Source: a virus. Taken from it: a stretch of DNA of 23,464 nucleotides. The translations under genes and the position numbers were made by a program. Positions 3,148-14,133 of this stretch are shown here, piece after piece (the first letter of the stretch is position 1; the number at the start of each line of letters is the position of its first letter). The stretch is from positions 1 through 23,464 of the IMG/VR virus record IMGVR_UViG_3300014913_000081; one strand, 5' to 3'. The notes under the pieces were generated by a model. The model was given only the letters and a program-made list of their open reading frames with translations. It did not search any database and had not been told where the DNA came from.

Positions 3148-4146
3148 ATGAGTCATAATAAAGGATTAGATGTTGGTACAAACATGTTGGTAGTTTCCTA
3201 CGAAGATAAAGAGGGTGTTATTAATTACAAGAAGCAACGTGATGCGTTTTATAAAATCACACCAAAGTCTTCCGTCAATGAGAATAGTATAAGAACGTCA
3301 CTTGAGAAGCGTGGTGTAAATTTTATAATTGATCAGAGTGGTAGTTTTGTTGTGGTTGGTGAGGACGCCCTTGAAATAGCTATAGAGAGAAATGATGTAG
3401 CTAAAAGACCAATGAGAAGAGGCGTGTTATCACCACGTGAGAAAGACTCACTTCCTATGTTAAAATTAATTATAGAAAGTTTAGTAGGCAGGGGCGAGAA
3501 AGATGAGAAGGTTGTGTTTTCTGTCCCCGCACGGCCCGTAGATGGTCATTTTGATATTGTATATCACACAGAAATGTTGAAGACATATCTTAGGGAAATG
3601 GGGTATGATTCTTATCCGATAAATGAGGCTTTTGCTATATCTTTGTCGGAGTTGTTGGATGATGGTTTGACGGGTGTTTGTTTGAGTTATGGTGCAGGCA
3701 TGGTAAATGTTGCTGTAATACATCAGGGTGACCCTCTTGTGGAGTTTAGTTTAACTCGTGCTGGTGATTATATAGATCATGCAGTTGGTAATGCTCTTGA
3801 TATATCTCCGAGTTTAGTTCAGTTGGAGAAAGAGGCTGGTATAGACTTATTTAATACAAAGAATAAAATAGAAGAGGCTGTTTCTGTTTATTATAATACA
3901 CTTATAAATTATACGTTGAGAAATATTTCGTTTGAATTAGACAAAAGAAAAAAAGATCTTCCTGTTTTTAGGAATTCAGTTCCTATTATTGTATCAGGTG
4001 GGTTAACATTGGCTGGTGGGTTTGTTGATAAATTTAATACTTGTTTGGAAAGTGTTTCGTTTCCAATAGATATAAAAGAAGTAAGAAGAGCTGAAGATCC
4101 AATGACAGCTGTTGCTACAGGCGCGTTGTTGGGCGCTCAATTATAG
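3148..4146 (+). CDS. Actin-like ATPase (MreB/ParM/Alp-type fold)
   Basis: 332 residues. The N-terminal phosphate-1 motif is GLDVGTN (6-12). A phosphate-2-like segment is GVCLSYGAGMVNVAVI (176-191). The adenosine motif is IVSGGLTLAGGF (281-292), followed by a C-terminal AVATGALLGAQ as in bacterial actins. VFSVPARPVD (123-132) and INEAFAIS match the conserved turn before phosphate 2. The acidic residue expected in phosphate 2 (DIGGGT in MreB) is replaced by Ser180-Tyr181, so nucleotide hydrolysis may be altered. SD is AAGGGGG. It likely forms filaments with the preceding coiled-coil protein, for DNA segregation, phage positioning or host takeover; which of these cannot be read from the sequence. 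An Hsp70-like role is less likely because there is no substrate domain. Confidence 0.85.
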   Translation: MSHNKGLDVGTNMLVVSYEDKEGVINYKKQRDAFYKITPKSSVNENSIRTSLEKRGVNFIIDQSGSFVVVGEDALEIAIERNDVAKRPMRRGVLSPREKDSLPMLKLIIESLVGRGEKDEKVVFSVPARPVDGHFDIVYHTEMLKTYLREMGYDSYPINEAFAISLSELLDDGLTGVCLSYGAGMVNVAVIHQGDPLVEFSLTRAGDYIDHAVGNALDISPSLVQLEKEAGIDLFNTKNKIEEAVSVYYNTLINYTLRNISFELDKRKKDLPVFRNSVPIIVSGGLTLAGGFVDKFNTCLESVSFPIDIKEVRRAEDPMTAVATGALLGAQL

Positions 4147-4161
4147 TAAGAGGTGGTAATT

Positions 4162-4395
4162 ATGCCAAAAACGTATGAAAAGAGAATAAAAAGTACAGCT
4201 TCTAGGGGAAGCGAAGGGTTTAATCCTGTGGTTAAAAAGTATTATGATGGTTCAGATAATTTAGTTCGCGAGGAAGAAATATTTAATGGTATTGTTTGGG
4301 GACAAACAATATCTGGATCACACTTTGCACAAAATTGGCCAACATATACTAAATTGGTTGTTTATAGTAAATGGGGAATGACTACTGTTTCTTAG
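4162..4395 (+). CDS. Small hypothetical protein
   Basis: 77 residues from ATG 4162. This start is preferred over the in-frame GTG at 4153 because AGAGGTGG (4149-4156) is then placed as its ribosome binding site. The N-terminus is basic (KTYEKRIKSTASRG). The rest is rich in Tyr, Trp and Gly (KYYDGSDN, GIVWGQTISG) and looks like a small beta-rich fold. It is not a family I recognise. It lies in the same run as the peptidase downstream, 13 bp away. Confidence 0.75.
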   Translation: MPKTYEKRIKSTASRGSEGFNPVVKKYYDGSDNLVREEEIFNGIVWGQTISGSHFAQNWPTYTKLVVYSKWGMTTVS

Positions 4396-5219: not shown

Positions 5220-5251
5220 ACTGACTTTAAAAATACAAGACATTAGTCAGT
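5220..5251 (+). promoter_or_regulatory. Inverted repeat in the leader of the 5280 gene
   Basis: ACTGACT (5220-5226) and AGTCAGT (5245-5251) are perfect 7-bp arms around an 18-nt AT-rich loop, between the cold-shock gene and the next ribosome binding site at about 5265. It could be an operator or an RNA hairpin; there is no T run. Confidence 0.4.
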
Positions 5252-5279
5252 GGTCTTTAATAAGAGGAGGAAAGATAGA

Positions 5280-6065
5280 ATGATGTATAAAGACAGATTT
5301 ATAGCGGTAATCAAATATAACAATAAAGTATTAAGGGAGATAGATGATGTAGTTAAACTTCCTTTTGATTCAGAATATTCTATTTTATTGAAGAATTTAG
5401 AGTCAAAAAAAGCTGTTGTTAGTATTAGTATTGATGGTGAGGATGTATTAGATGGTAATTCCATTATTGTAGAGCCTGATTCAAATCTTGAGCTAAAAGG
5501 TTTTATGAAGCATATGAGTTTAACCAATCGGTTCAAGTTTATACGAAAAACTAAAGAAATATCTGATTATAGAGGTGATCGTTTAGATGATGGTATAGTC
5601 AGAGTAGAATTTAGGTTTGAGAGGAAAAAGGTTGAGGAATGTAGAAAGATTTATTGTAATATAATATGTTCGGTTTGTCACAGTCATCCTTGTATATGTA
5701 ATAGTACACTATGGACATATACAGATGGATATGATAGTACGTTTTATTGCAATTCCAAAACATTTAAAGGTTCGGATAACATGATTTACACTTCTAGTTT
5801 TTCTGTTGATAATTGTTTACCATCAGATGATGAGGGGTTGACTGTTAAAGGGTCAGAAATAAACCAGGGTTTTGTTTATGGTTCTACAGATGATTTAGAA
5901 GAATCTTCGTCGATAATAATTCTCAGGCTTAAAGGAACTAAAAGTGGTGGAAAAAAAGTAAAAAAGGCTTTAACCGTAAAGTCAAAAGTAAGATGTTCAA
6001 CTTGTGGTAGAAAGTCCAAATCAGGTGTTAAATTTTGTTCAAATTGCGGAACATTTTTGGATTAG
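5280..6065 (+). CDS. Conserved-looking phage protein with C-terminal zinc ribbon
   Basis: 261 residues. ATG 5280 is chosen because GAGGAGG lies just upstream; a longer in-frame start at 5250 precedes that site. Residues 1-115 are beta-rich (LPFDSEYSILLKNL, VVSISIDGEDVLDG, NRFKFIRKTKEISDYRG, GIVRVEFRFE) and resemble a widespread phage protein family of unknown role. Residues 121-140 hold six cysteines (C121, C126, C130, C133, C138, C140) and may bind metal. The C-terminus is a clear zinc ribbon, C239xxC242 and C253xxC256, after a Lys-rich linker. Function unknown; a virion or regulatory nucleic-acid-binding protein is possible. Confidence 0.8.
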   Translation: MMYKDRFIAVIKYNNKVLREIDDVVKLPFDSEYSILLKNLESKKAVVSISIDGEDVLDGNSIIVEPDSNLELKGFMKHMSLTNRFKFIRKTKEISDYRGDRLDDGIVRVEFRFERKKVEECRKIYCNIICSVCHSHPCICNSTLWTYTDGYDSTFYCNSKTFKGSDNMIYTSSFSVDNCLPSDDEGLTVKGSEINQGFVYGSTDDLEESSSIIILRLKGTKSGGKKVKKALTVKSKVRCSTCGRKSKSGVKFCSNCGTFLD

Positions 6066-9816: not shown

Positions 9817-12800
9817 TTGAAATTAGGAAAAAGAAATATAGAAGAAGTTTATTCTTTGGGAAAACAGATGATAGATTATTACATCAAAAATCCTTGTATA
9901 GCTGCTTATGATTTATTAAATGTTGATCTTGCTCCCATACAGAGAGTGGTGTTTGAGGATATGTGGTTTAAGAATTATTCTATTACAATCATCTCAAGAG
10001 GCGGTGGGAAAAGCGCAGCAGTAGATAGTTTATCTTTTATTAAAAATAAGGGTTTATGTTATTTATATGAACAATTTCCAGAGATTCCGAGTTTCTTAAG
10101 ATCTGGTGAAACATTGGAGATAGAATGTGATTCTAGTCTTTACACATCTGAAGGGTTTAGGCCTACAAAAGAAATATCATTAGAAAAAAATATAGCAGGA
10201 TTAAAACTAACAACAAATTACGGCTTCGAGCACAAAGGTAGTTACCATCACCCGCTGCTTGTGTTGGATGAAAATGCAAACTTTTGTTATAAACAATTAC
10301 GTGATTTTAAACAAGGTGATAGGGTTTGTATTCAACGAGGTCAGAATGTATTTGGTAATAATGATATACCAAAAGAAGACGCCTATTTAATTGGTTTGTT
10401 TATAGGTGATGATTTAATAGATGGTAAATATAATTTTCAGAGTATAAGCTCAGCTGATGATGAAATTTTAAATTTTTGTACTAATTATTGCGAAAAACAT
10501 AATATATCTTATATGTCTGATAAAGATAAAAGACGTCAATTTTTTTATAGTTTTTATTTCAAACGTTTTGCATGGTTTTTTGATAAATATAAAATTAAAC
10601 GGGGTTTGTCGTATAATAAAGAAGTTCCATATAGTATAAGAACTGCAAATAAAGAAGCACAATTAAATTTTTTGAAGGGGTATTTTGATTGTGCCGGAGG
10701 TTTTGATGGTAAAGACGTGTCGTGTTGCTCTGTATCTAAAAAACTAATGAAAGAAATACAAATAATGTTGTTAGGTTTTGGCGTGGTTAGTAAGCTGATA
10801 AAGAAGAAAACTAAATCTAAATTTGGTAAAGTGTATTTGCTTAAGATAACTTCGTGTAATATAGAAATTTTTTATAAAAATATAAATTTTGGTTTAACGC
10901 GAAAACAAGATAGTGTACATAATTATTTGAAATCAAAAACTTTAAATCCAAATATAGACACAATACCAGGATTAATTGATATTTGTTATAATCTTTATGT
11001 TAATTATAAAAATACCAACGGCGGAACTTTTAAGAGTCAAGGATTGCCAAAACTATCAAGAACAATTAATAGTGGTAAGAATTTTAAGGAATATACTTAT
11101 GAAAGATTAAATGAATTTGTAGATGATATGTATCGGATAGTTGAGCTTGGGTATGAGTTTTCAGGCTCAGATTTAAAGACGCTGTCAAAACTTAAATTAA
11201 TATCTAATACTAATTACTATTTTGATGTGGTAAAAATTATTGAAGAGTGGTCAGGAGATTGTTATGATTTTGAGATGGACATGGGTTCTGATGACGTGGA
11301 ACCAAATTATTTTTGTAATGGTTTTATTAATCATAATACATATCTTCTGGGTGTGTTATCTTGTTTAAGTTGTTTACTTTATCCTGGATATCGTGTAGGC
11401 CTAATTGGGCCAGTTTTTAGACAAAGTTTTACAATTAAATCAAATAGCTATGATACCTTTTGGACTTCTAGTGGTTTACATACTACGGCAGAAAATTTTT
11501 ATGATTCAATACAAGAAGGGATAACAGAAACACAATCTCTAGAAACACAAAATACTATTTTAAGTAAATGGAAAAATCCAGATCGTGCTTGTAGATATAT
11601 AAAAACTACTAAAGGTTTTGAATTGGCTGGTACAACAGATCATGGTATTTTGGTTCTTGATGACGAATTAGATTTGGTATTTAAGGATCTACAAGATATT
11701 AAATATAATGATTATTTAGTAATAAAAACAGGATTTAATTATTTTGGTAATAATAATTCTATGCCTAGATTTGATGAATTTGAAGGTGATTGGAGAACTA
11801 AGGACTGTGAAATACCTACAGAATTAGATTCAAATTTATCGTATTGGATGGGTTTGGTAGTAGGTGGTGGTTGTGTTTCTATAAGTAAAGATAAAAGAAA
11901 ACAGTATGTAGATTTTGTAAATGATGATCAAGATTTACTTGACTCTTTTGAGAATTACCTAAGAAAATATTTTTTGATAGATAAAGATGAAAAAATAAGA
12001 AGCGGTAATAGAAAAAATAACACTTGTCAAATTCAATATTTTTGCAAAAAACTAATTCAGTATTTGCTGAAGTGTGGTTTTACTAAAACTACATCTTTAG
12101 ATAAGAAAATTCCAGTCGTGATTAAGAAATCATCTAGAGAAAATTTTATAGCTTTCTTGCAAGGTCTTTATGACACTGATGGTTGTGTTTATATACAAAG
12201 TCATAAACATGGTTATACTCATTGTGAGGTAACTTTTAATACTTCGTCTTTACAACTTGTTAGAGAAATTCATTCTGTATTGTTAAATTTAGGAATTGTT
12301 TCTAATTTATGTATAAGCAATAAAGAGTGTATTAAAAAATTATCACAAGGTAATAAACCATTAAAGTGTTCGGAAGCTTATAAGATAATAATAACAGGTC
12401 AAACATTTTTGACTAGGTTTAATAATATTATTGGGTTTAGGTGTGAAAGGAAAAATATTAAACTTACTAATTATTTAAATATATATTTTACTAGAGACGC
12501 AAGCTTGTCCGGATCTATAGGGATTACAAACGAATTAGTAATGAGTGCTAATTACAAATGCAAATCTTATTTAGACCAAGGTTTGTATTTTGTCAAGATG
12601 GTAGATTCAAAATACTTTTCAGCACCTACTATAGATGCTGAAGTAGAAAATGAACATTGCTATTGGGCAAATGGTTTTATAAATCATAATTCAAAAATGA
12701 TTTTTTCGGAGGTTGAAAAGCTTTATTCTAAATCATCGCTTCTTAGGGAGGCCTGCGAAAAAAAACCTACTAGAGGATCAGATACCGCTTACTTGAAGTT

Positions 12801-14133
12801 TAAGTCTTCTGGTAGTGTTAATGGTTCGTTTATAGAGGCGTTGCCTTTGGGTGTAGATGGTTCTAAAATTCGTGGTTCTCGTTTTTATTTAATATGTCTA
12901 GATGAGTTAGCTCAAATACCTGACAAGATACTTGATCTTGTAATTAGACCGTTTGGTGCTACTACACTTGAACCAATGGAGAATGTTAGAAGGATAGAGC
13001 AACAGAAAAGATTAATAGAACAAGGACTCGCTACTATAGATGATTTTCAAGAAGAAACTGTTAACAAGCTAATGATGACATCTTCTGGTTATTATAAGTT
13101 TAATCATATGTGGAGAAGAATGAAGGATTATTGGGCCCAGATGGATGAGAAGTGTGATAAATCTCCGTATGTTGTGCATCAAGTACCTTATTGGGATTTC
13201 CCGCCAGGTTTTTTAGATTTAAACAATATTAATGAAGCAAAACGTATTATGTCAAATGCAGAATTCCGCATGGAGTATGAAGCTGTAATGATATCTGATT
13301 CAGAAGGATTTTTTAAGGCCTCTTTGTTAGATAGTTGTACGGATGATAGCGGGTTTAGTCTTGAACTAAAAGGTAAAGTAGGTTCACAATATATAGTTGG
13401 GGTGGATCCAAATCAAGGTGGAAATGCAAGTTGTGGTATTGTGGTTATAAAATTGGGTCAAATAAATAAAATTGTCAGCGTTTTAGAATTAAAGAAAAAC
13501 ACAACACAAGATTTAACAAGACATGTACAGAGGTTGTGTTCTGATTATAATGTAGTACGTATCTTTATGGACAAGGGCGGCGGTGGAAAAGCTGTCATGG
13601 ATTTGCTTGAAGAAGGGTATGATAACCAAGAACCAATTATAAATATAACAGATAAAGATAGTGAGTTGAAAGACGGTAGGCACATTTTGGAAATGGTTAA
13701 TTTTACGCCGGCGTGGATTTCTGATGCTAATTTTACCACTAAAGCGTTGTTAGAAAATAAAACTCTTAGATTTCCTGAACCACCTGTTTCTAGTTTGGAT
13801 TTAGAGGCTGTAGCTTATGAGAGGGTGAATAGTTTGAAATCTCAGATGTTAAATATAGTTGTTACGCAGACAGCACGCGGTTTACTTCATTTTGACACAC
13901 CTAAACGAGGTCAAAATAAGGATCTCTATTCGGCTATTATTCTAGCTGCTCAGGGTATTAGGGAGTTTGAGAAGTATATGACTGGTGATGACCAGCCTAG
14001 TATGTGTAATACAGGTTTGGTTAGGGTCCACGAGCCTGGCTCAAGGTTTGCGTCTGAAAATAAAAAAAGTGGTATGGGTTTTAGTGATCCGATGCAAGCG
14101 GCTTTGCTTAAACCTCTCAAGAAAAGAAGATAA
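9817..14133 (+). CDS. terL: Terminase large subunit precursor with two inteins
   Basis: 1438 codons from TTG 9817, with GAGGGGGAG upstream overlapping the previous gene's end. Extein segments are residues 1-65, 508-541 and 959-1438, together about 579 residues, normal for TerL. The Walker A loop RGGGK is completed by Thr508 only after splicing of intein 1. Walker B is LICLDE (Asp1029, Glu1030). The RuvC-like nuclease has Asp1197 (GVDP), Asp1252 (IFMDKGGGG) and Asp1369 (KDLYSA). LPLGVDGSKIRGSRF and VIRPFGATTLEPME are typical of the family. The protein cuts and pumps DNA into proheads at the portal. It can work only after protein splicing. There are no internal stops or frameshifts. See the two intein entries. 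Confidence 0.95.
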   Translation: MKLGKRNIEEVYSLGKQMIDYYIKNPCIAAYDLLNVDLAPIQRVVFEDMWFKNYSITIISRGGGKSAAVDSLSFIKNKGLCYLYEQFPEIPSFLRSGETLEIECDSSLYTSEGFRPTKEISLEKNIAGLKLTTNYGFEHKGSYHHPLLVLDENANFCYKQLRDFKQGDRVCIQRGQNVFGNNDIPKEDAYLIGLFIGDDLIDGKYNFQSISSADDEILNFCTNYCEKHNISYMSDKDKRRQFFYSFYFKRFAWFFDKYKIKRGLSYNKEVPYSIRTANKEAQLNFLKGYFDCAGGFDGKDVSCCSVSKKLMKEIQIMLLGFGVVSKLIKKKTKSKFGKVYLLKITSCNIEIFYKNINFGLTRKQDSVHNYLKSKTLNPNIDTIPGLIDICYNLYVNYKNTNGGTFKSQGLPKLSRTINSGKNFKEYTYERLNEFVDDMYRIVELGYEFSGSDLKTLSKLKLISNTNYYFDVVKIIEEWSGDCYDFEMDMGSDDVEPNYFCNGFINHNTYLLGVLSCLSCLLYPGYRVGLIGPVFRQSFTIKSNSYDTFWTSSGLHTTAENFYDSIQEGITETQSLETQNTILSKWKNPDRACRYIKTTKGFELAGTTDHGILVLDDELDLVFKDLQDIKYNDYLVIKTGFNYFGNNNSMPRFDEFEGDWRTKDCEIPTELDSNLSYWMGLVVGGGCVSISKDKRKQYVDFVNDDQDLLDSFENYLRKYFLIDKDEKIRSGNRKNNTCQIQYFCKKLIQYLLKCGFTKTTSLDKKIPVVIKKSSRENFIAFLQGLYDTDGCVYIQSHKHGYTHCEVTFNTSSLQLVREIHSVLLNLGIVSNLCISNKECIKKLSQGNKPLKCSEAYKIIITGQTFLTRFNNIIGFRCERKNIKLTNYLNIYFTRDASLSGSIGITNELVMSANYKCKSYLDQGLYFVKMVDSKYFSAPTIDAEVENEHCYWANGFINHNSKMIFSEVEKLYSKSSLLREACEKKPTRGSDTAYLKFKSSGSVNGSFIEALPLGVDGSKIRGSRFYLICLDELAQIPDKILDLVIRPFGATTLEPMENVRRIEQQKRLIEQGLATIDDFQEETVNKLMMTSSGYYKFNHMWRRMKDYWAQMDEKCDKSPYVVHQVPYWDFPPGFLDLNNINEAKRIMSNAEFRMEYEAVMISDSEGFFKASLLDSCTDDSGFSLELKGKVGSQYIVGVDPNQGGNASCGIVVIKLGQINKIVSVLELKKNTTQDLTRHVQRLCSDYNVVRIFMDKGGGGKAVMDLLEEGYDNQEPIINITDKDSELKDGRHILEMVNFTPAWISDANFTTKALLENKTLRFPEPPVSSLDLEAVAYERVNSLKSQMLNIVVTQTARGLLHFDTPKRGQNKDLYSAIILAAQGIREFEKYMTGDDQPSMCNTGLVRVHEPGSRFASENKKSGMGFSDPMQAALLKPLKKRR
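10012..11337 (+). mobile_element. Intein 1 of TerL, LAGLIDADG type, in Walker A loop
   Basis: Residues 66-507 (442 aa). Block A is SAAVDS, with Ser as first residue and the usual D-S at positions 5-6. A block B-like stretch is SYHHPLLVL. The C-terminal end is CYDFEM...FCNGFINHN with Asn507, followed by Thr508 as +1 nucleophile. The endonuclease motifs are LIGLFIGDD (aspartate present) and LKGYFDCAG, where the catalytic aspartate position is Ala. The insertion separates GGGK from T in the ATPase P-loop. The sequence looks more AT-rich than the surrounding exteins. Splicing residues are intact; homing activity is doubtful. Coordinates are at the codon level. Confidence 0.9.
11440..12690 (+). 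mobile_element. Intein 2 of TerL, LAGLIDADG type
   Basis: Residues 542-958 (417 aa) if it starts at Ser542 of SNSYDTFWTSSG, which fits block A exactly. A start at Ser537 (nt 11425) is the alternative and would give the spliced sequence FRQSKMIF. Block B is GFELAGTTDHGILVL. The C-terminal end is IDAEVENEHCYWANGFINHN with Asn958, then Ser959. The LAGLIDADG motifs are WMGLVVGGG, where the catalytic aspartate position is Gly, and LQGLYDTDG, which is intact. It shares the linker pattern (G-x-N-x-FGNN) with intein 1, so they are distant relatives. Splicing appears intact, cleavage doubtful. Confidence 0.9.

Follow-up and report, generated by a model that had tools for sequence, protein, structure and literature searches.

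The gene for the terminase large subunit (TerL) in this virus record is interrupted by two inteins, A and B, and it raises the question of whether the LAGLIDADG homing nucleases within them can still act. A preliminary description held that each nuclease had lost one catalytic aspartate, in opposite motifs, so that both were disabled or reduced to nicking. Late decay in the homing cycle, twice in one gene, was its favored account; retention as nickases or joint action of the two was offered more speculatively. Throughout, the window is the whole stretch of DNA analyzed, a 23,464-base IMG/VR virus record.

Two inteins in one terL gene

The terL gene is one open reading frame on the plus strand (9817..14133; 1438 aa, TTG start), assigned by Pfam, PHROGs and its relatives. 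Pfam searches matched it to an intein-splicing model, to LAGLIDADG_3 in four stretches and, towards the C-terminus, to a terminase nuclease model, this last at 21.1 bits, slightly below the 22.6 cut-off; terminase large-subunit families of PHROGs matched as well. Removal of the inteins leaves extein pieces of 65, 29 and 480 aa, which are colinear with intact relatives such as L005-L007, with 74-76% identity in the C-terminal piece. Intein A (10012..11337, plus strand; 442 aa, ORF residues 66-507) interrupts the Walker A motif between its Lys and Thr (between GGGK and T), a site that is empty in most relatives. Intein B (11425..12690, plus strand; 422 aa, ORF residues 537-958) lies between FRQ and S. 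An extein segment of 29 codons (11338..11424, plus strand) separates them, and the two insertion sites are 87 bp apart in the empty gene. These coordinates agree exactly with the 10012-12690 span first proposed for two TerL inteins.

Both inteins begin with Ser, end in HN and have a block-B His, and the residue that follows is Thr for A and Ser for B, so the earlier statement that the splicing residues remain holds for each. The class 1 pattern (Ser or Cys first, block-B His, HN end, and Cys, Ser or Thr at +1) is present in both; judged by these residues, A and B are class-1-type inteins with splicing motifs intact. Their nuclease cores, with approximate boundaries, span intein residues 116-300 of A (10357..10911, plus strand) and 131-340 of B (11815..12444, plus strand). 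The motifs read LIGLFIGDD (from 10387) and LKGYFDCAG (from 10672) in A, and WMGLVVGGG (from 11845) and LQGLYDTDG (from 12157) in B, letter for letter as first reported. Pfam LAGLIDADG_3 and structure matches place both in the two-motif LAGLIDADG (DOD) nuclease fold. AF2 models were confident (pLDDT 87.9 for A and 89.0 for B) and matched whole LAGLIDADG inteins. The best PDB match was the TliVMA intein in each case: 7qss for A (Z 29.8, rmsd 3.6, 378 aligned) and 7qsu for B (Z 33.2, rmsd 2.7, 327 aligned). Foldseek and VIA matches for the two models included TliVMA, PI-PfuI and I-DmoI.

Elsewhere in the window, 3148-4146 (plus strand) encodes a protein with a match to Volactin, an archaeal actin-like family (PF25216, E 1.3e-60; second search E 1e-62), and a nearby zinc-ribbon ORF (5250-6065) has weak DUF7577/DUF7575 matches. 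Going by these matches, the pair might indicate that the host is an archaeon or that the virus encodes an actin-like filament protein.

Survey of TerL relatives

Relatives were sought with the terL C-extein, each intein and their alignments as queries, by scanning viral contigs and by one scan of genome contigs. A total of 118 distinct TerL ORFs was found, with one viral contig scan giving 110 relatives. Sites A and B were both empty in 57 of the 118; intein A alone was present in 20, B alone in 12 and both in 12. The remainder comprised two ORFs with A and C inteins (their A inteins identical), one with B and C in which site A is not visible, and 14 that could not be classed at one or both sites. 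The last viral contig scan added no new intein-bearing TerL, and sampling of that collection therefore looks close to exhausted. The genome-contig scan yielded three metagenome-assembled contigs, filed under three unrelated phyla. At the DNA level, terL had no match in phages; at the protein level, the matches were to distant inteins, mostly helicase-borne.

Several sequences were dropped before scoring. These were the duplicates L124 (A as in L123), L167 (B as in L166) and L238 (B 99.7% identical to that of L240), the short or one-motif fragments L141, L143, L151 and L152 (A) and L118, L119, L120 and L186 (B), the TerL-like paralogue fragment L209, and L114/L176, in which B has both Asp residues but a broken reading frame. 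In L114 (3971-6714) this TerL, with both catalytic Asp residues in its intein B, is split across three frames, either by assembly error or as a pseudogene. The identical B inteins of L148 and L166 were entered as one double and one B-only case; L123 (A and C) was treated as A-only in the main test of double occupancy and as multiple in an alternative test.

Site C, a third intein site in TerL, lies before SKIRGS and is filled together with A in L123 (IMGVR_UViG_3300035532_000075) and together with B in L157 (IMGVR_UViG_3300031601_001372); both C inteins have Asp in both LAGLIDADG motifs. Further observations concern TerL itself. An otherwise intact, intein-free TerL (L056) has a single in-frame TAA at 4359-4361, which may be a nonsense mutation, a sequencing error or recoding. 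L016 (429-1148) and L024 (5755-6492) each have, on the contig of the full gene, another ORF of roughly 240 aa that looks like the N-terminal ATPase part of TerL, with 21-29% identity over the aligned C-extein part.

Loss of catalytic acids in opposite motifs

We take position 8 to be the catalytic letter within the LAGLIDADG motif. The intein A profile aligns this position with the acids of PI-PfuI (GDG, DAEG) and I-DmoI (GDG, AEG), the column of Ala228 falling on Glu in motif 2 of both enzymes, and in the intein B profile it falls in the same way on those of TliVMA and PI-PfuI. The acidic catalytic residues are described as sitting on the LAGLIDADG helices of blocks C and E (in the part of PMC8966425 covered). 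In intein A, position 8 is Asp133 in motif 1 (10408..10410, plus strand), where position 9 is also Asp instead of the usual Gly, and Ala228 in motif 2 (codon GCC, 10693..10695, plus strand), which the model places at the end of the motif helix. Intein B has the reverse arrangement, with Gly148 in motif 1 (codon GGT, 11866..11868, plus strand) and Asp252 in motif 2 (12178..12180, plus strand). Neither intein has an acid at position 8 of both motifs, the pattern of an active LAGLIDADG nuclease.

Of the 28 scorable A inteins, 15 have Asp at position 8 in both motifs, as do 22 of the 25 scorable B inteins. Since Asp is usual at both positions among the relatives, Ala228 and Gly148 are losses, which bears out the earlier reading of different mutations in opposite motifs. 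The losses at site A take various forms: alongside the Asp/Ala of the window we found Cys/Ala, Ala/Ser, Cys/Asn, Asp/Gly, Asp/Asn, Asn/Asn, Gly/Ser, Gly/Asn, Thr/Lys, Glu/Asn, Gly/Asp and one deletion. At site B the pairs with a loss were Gly/Asp (window), His/Asp and Ala/Gly. Both window inteins have additionally lost a near-invariant Arg, as read from the alignments: Ile263 in A (10798..10800, plus strand) stands where 15/15 intact A inteins have Arg, and Ile322 in B (12388..12390, plus strand) where 20/22 intact B inteins do.

Degree and relative age of the decay

Decay was gauged at conserved sites, defined as those kept in at least 85% of intact relatives, with intact A inteins scored leave-one-out. 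Intein A of the window retains 69/82 conserved nuclease sites, below every intact A (0.87-0.99), and 42/44 and 26/26 sites in its splicing domain. Intein B retains 46/50 nuclease sites, within the intact range of 0.80-1.00, and all 45/45 splicing sites (30/30 + 15/15). The nuclease/splicing ratio of the terminal branch, computed on fixed topologies, came to 1.60 in window A, and the other four degenerate A inteins that were tested ranged over 1.35-2.05. The 15 intact A inteins had a median of 0.74 (degenerate higher, one-sided p=0.002), and three of them, at 1.29-1.68, overlap the degenerate ones. This test covered 20 of the 28 A inteins; those with large deletions, partial sequences and the divergent L145 and L139 were excluded. 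Among B inteins, branch ratios did not separate broken from intact. The low conserved-site score and high branch ratio of A, set against the near-complete nuclease of B, point to an older loss in A and a recent one in B. Intein A thus seems to have gone unselected for a while and B looks recently broken, from which we infer that A broke first. The nearest intein relatives are about 53-69% identical. Because the survey turned up nothing closely related to the window itself, only a relative age can be given for either loss.

Decay and mobility can also be followed between very similar genes. In three clusters with C-exteins at least 90% identical, the filled sites differ: L182 (A and B), L093 (A) and L230 (empty); L128 (A) and L251 (empty); L153 (B) and L010/L011 (empty). 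All scorable inteins in these clusters are intact (Asp/Asp). L148 is 99.6-99.98% identical to L166/L167/L222 over 5.5-6.2 kb, and L148, L166 and L167 share identical B inteins; the end of an intein A is seen only in L148, whose contig starts inside it. L083 and L084 are 99.9-100% identical except for an 84-residue in-frame deletion in the A nuclease (429 vs 345 aa), possibly a snapshot of a mini-intein forming. Because near-identical TerL genes differ in occupancy or in the A deletion, the intact inteins look recently mobile and decay would, on these sequences, sometimes be very recent.

Discussion

Taken together, these analyses make it likely that both LAGLIDADG nucleases are catalytically dead and that the splicing domains have been kept. 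Each nuclease would have been inactivated by the loss of one essential acid plus further substitutions, and neither intein would then cut or nick. The splicing domains would be retained because TerL is essential, and the inteins would persist because precise deletion is presumably rare. Since the set of filled sites varies among relatives whose C-exteins share at least 90% identity, A and B probably arrived by independent homing at sites 87 bp apart. Two observations sit less easily with dead nucleases: the nuclease of B is otherwise conserved well enough that it may still bind DNA or help splicing, and the rate signal of A overlaps that of three intact A inteins. The late homing-cycle decay suggested in the preliminary description fits what was found, namely independent nuclease losses, retained splicing and greater decay in A than in B.

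One objection is that the substitutions are assembly or sequencing errors in a metagenomic contig. The window is a single IMG/VR record, and a second copy of its virus was not found in the survey. However, Ala228, Gly148, Ile263 and Ile322 are four clean missense codons in an open frame of 1438 codons, other contigs have independent losses at the same positions, and the matching rate increase in intein A argues against sequencing error; we regard such errors as highly unlikely. It is just as hard to credit that another acidic residue took over and that one or both nucleases still cut. The candidates are Asp134, directly after Asp133, and Asp232, four residues past Ala228, near which the only other acid is Asp226, at the usual non-catalytic position 6. 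In the AF2 model of intein A, however, Asp232 is predicted to lie on a segment beyond the motif helix (H214-228), and no acid occurs within five residues of Gly148 in B. This look for a replacement acid covered sequence and secondary structure.

Could the inteins instead survive as single-strand nickases? One Asp and the block-D Lys are left in each, and engineered LAGLIDADG nickases exist, but what is reported for I-SceI points the other way. Its Asp145 is, we assume, the motif 2 residue. The single Asp-to-Ala mutant D145A was completely defective, with supercoiled plasmid uncut in 12 h, and the nickase was the Lys mutant K223I (in the part of PMC3928301 covered), which keeps both Asp residues, being a single substitution. 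If Asp145 is indeed the motif 2 residue, the Asp-to-Ala change in A would by analogy be of the dead type. The nickase pattern, with both Asp residues kept and a basic residue changed, is not what A and B show, each having one Asp missing. Furthermore, B has lost Arg322 in the very half that retains its Asp, the nuclease domain of A is decaying, and elsewhere in the family both acids, or much of the domain, have gone. Retention of either intein as a nickase is therefore very unlikely; of the earlier phrase "disabled or reduced to nicking", the first half is supported, with acids lost and splicing kept, and the second is not. Cooperation asks for still more: opposite-strand nicks 87 bp apart, or a heterodimer contributing one Asp each, would produce a staggered break from which both inteins home. 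In its favor, A and B have kept opposite motifs, and by letter so have those of L184 (A Asp/Asn, B His/Asp). But cooperation needs nicking, which was absent in the single-Asp I-SceI mutant; the A intein of L184 is 358 aa long with a large nuclease deletion (40/82 conserved sites) and could not serve as a nickase; and in L174, the third gene with both nucleases broken, all four acids are gone. With a single loss in each intein, opposite motifs would arise at about even odds, and in two genes by chance about 1/4 of the time, so that the pattern is not above chance. We found no positive evidence that A and B act together and consider it extremely unlikely.

A different kind of account refines, and does not oppose, the dead-nuclease explanation. 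In this driver-passenger reading, once both sites are filled one nuclease, in this family that of the P-loop intein, is dispensable or harmful and is lost, while the other co-converts both inteins; harm could arise if two nearby breaks or active nucleases block each other's homing. The window would then be an end stage at which the driver, B, has now failed too. Degenerate A inteins occur in 8/11 doubly filled genes vs 5/17 others (p=0.051), degenerate B inteins in 3/12 vs 0/11 (p=0.22), and degenerate inteins pooled in 11/23 vs 5/28 (p=0.034). Without the partial L136 and L084, the sister of L083, the figures for A are 8/11 vs 3/15 (p=0.015), and when the two C-intein genes, in each of which both inteins are intact, are counted as multiple, the association weakens to p=0.12 for A and 0.13 pooled; kinship is ignored in all of these tests. 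Across the 11 doubles, A alone is broken in five, B alone in none, both in three and neither in three, so a broken B is always found beside a broken A (3/3). Two active neighboring intein nucleases in Haloferax co-home poorly (PMC10643990, in part), which also favors the driver-passenger reading. Against it, intact and degenerate labels are scattered over the intein-A splicing-domain tree, an independent-pairs test on that tree had only four supported pairs, and the covered part of PMC10643990 reports no difference between double and single inteins in how common nuclease domains were. Site A also decays more than site B, whatever the cause: nuclease loss is found in 13/28 A and 3/25 B inteins (Fisher p=0.008, kinship ignored). 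Among Haloferacales MCM inteins, 19/64 at the Walker A site and 5/66 at MCM-d had no detectable nuclease (PMC10643990, in part), counts that differ at p=0.0014 in our test. The higher decay at the P-loop site of TerL matches these MCM-a and MCM-d counts and, by analogy, may reflect a site effect. We therefore treat the driver-passenger reading as rather improbable, and the association of double occupancy with nuclease loss as a lead, not a result.

Both degenerate-nuclease inteins (PMC8966425, with an account of the homing cycle in PMC3229294, each as far as covered) and TerL inteins (PMC5050341, likewise) are already known. The TerL1-a intein of mycobacteriophages is inserted between the P-loop Lys and Thr, as is intein A, although in a different TerL lineage from that of the window, and LAGLIDADG endonuclease domains are present in the TerL1-b and -c inteins (Kelley et al. 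2016, PMC5050341). Two inteins in one TerL and loss of a catalytic Asp are features of the window that the covered parts of that paper do not describe. A search of open-licence literature by title and start of abstract likewise found nothing on nuclease loss in a doubly invaded TerL, and one for PI-SceI Asp mutants found nothing useful. TliVMA, PI-PfuI and PI-SceI have the same HINT and LAGLIDADG fold as A and B but, unlike them, keep both catalytic acids. The closest parallel in kind is PhoVMA (PDB 7qst; Z 27.1 to A and 28.3 to B), in which the scaffold and splicing are kept and the acids lost; in their predicted models, A and B likewise retain scaffold and splicing blocks with an acid missing and are of this degenerate-nuclease type. 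According to the part of PMC8966425 covered, PhoVMA lost both acids and part of motif 2, whereas the window inteins lost one acid each, and it was put to DNA-binding and cleavage assays, whereas we infer the inactivity of A and B. For the arrangement of the sites, the parallel is MCM-a and MCM-d of Haloferacales, neighboring inteins in one essential ATPase gene, one of them at the Walker A Lys. There, however, both nucleases are active in Hfx. mediterranei and the gene is a haloarchaeal cell gene, while in the window both are broken and the gene is viral (PMC10643990, in the part covered).

Conclusions

By itself, the window probably represents an ordinary late stage of the homing cycle, reached twice in one gene, and its two inteins are probably spent genetic parasites. 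The TerL family reaches further, as it could be used to test whether the nuclease of one intein is influenced by a neighboring intein. PMC10643990 (part covered) asks how frequently nuclease-free inteins home with help from a neighbor, and this family lends itself naturally to that question, since sites A, B and C are variably filled, close relatives differ in occupancy and nuclease decay varies widely. If the driver-passenger reading is true, these genes would provide natural evidence on whether neighboring homing elements select against each other's nuclease.
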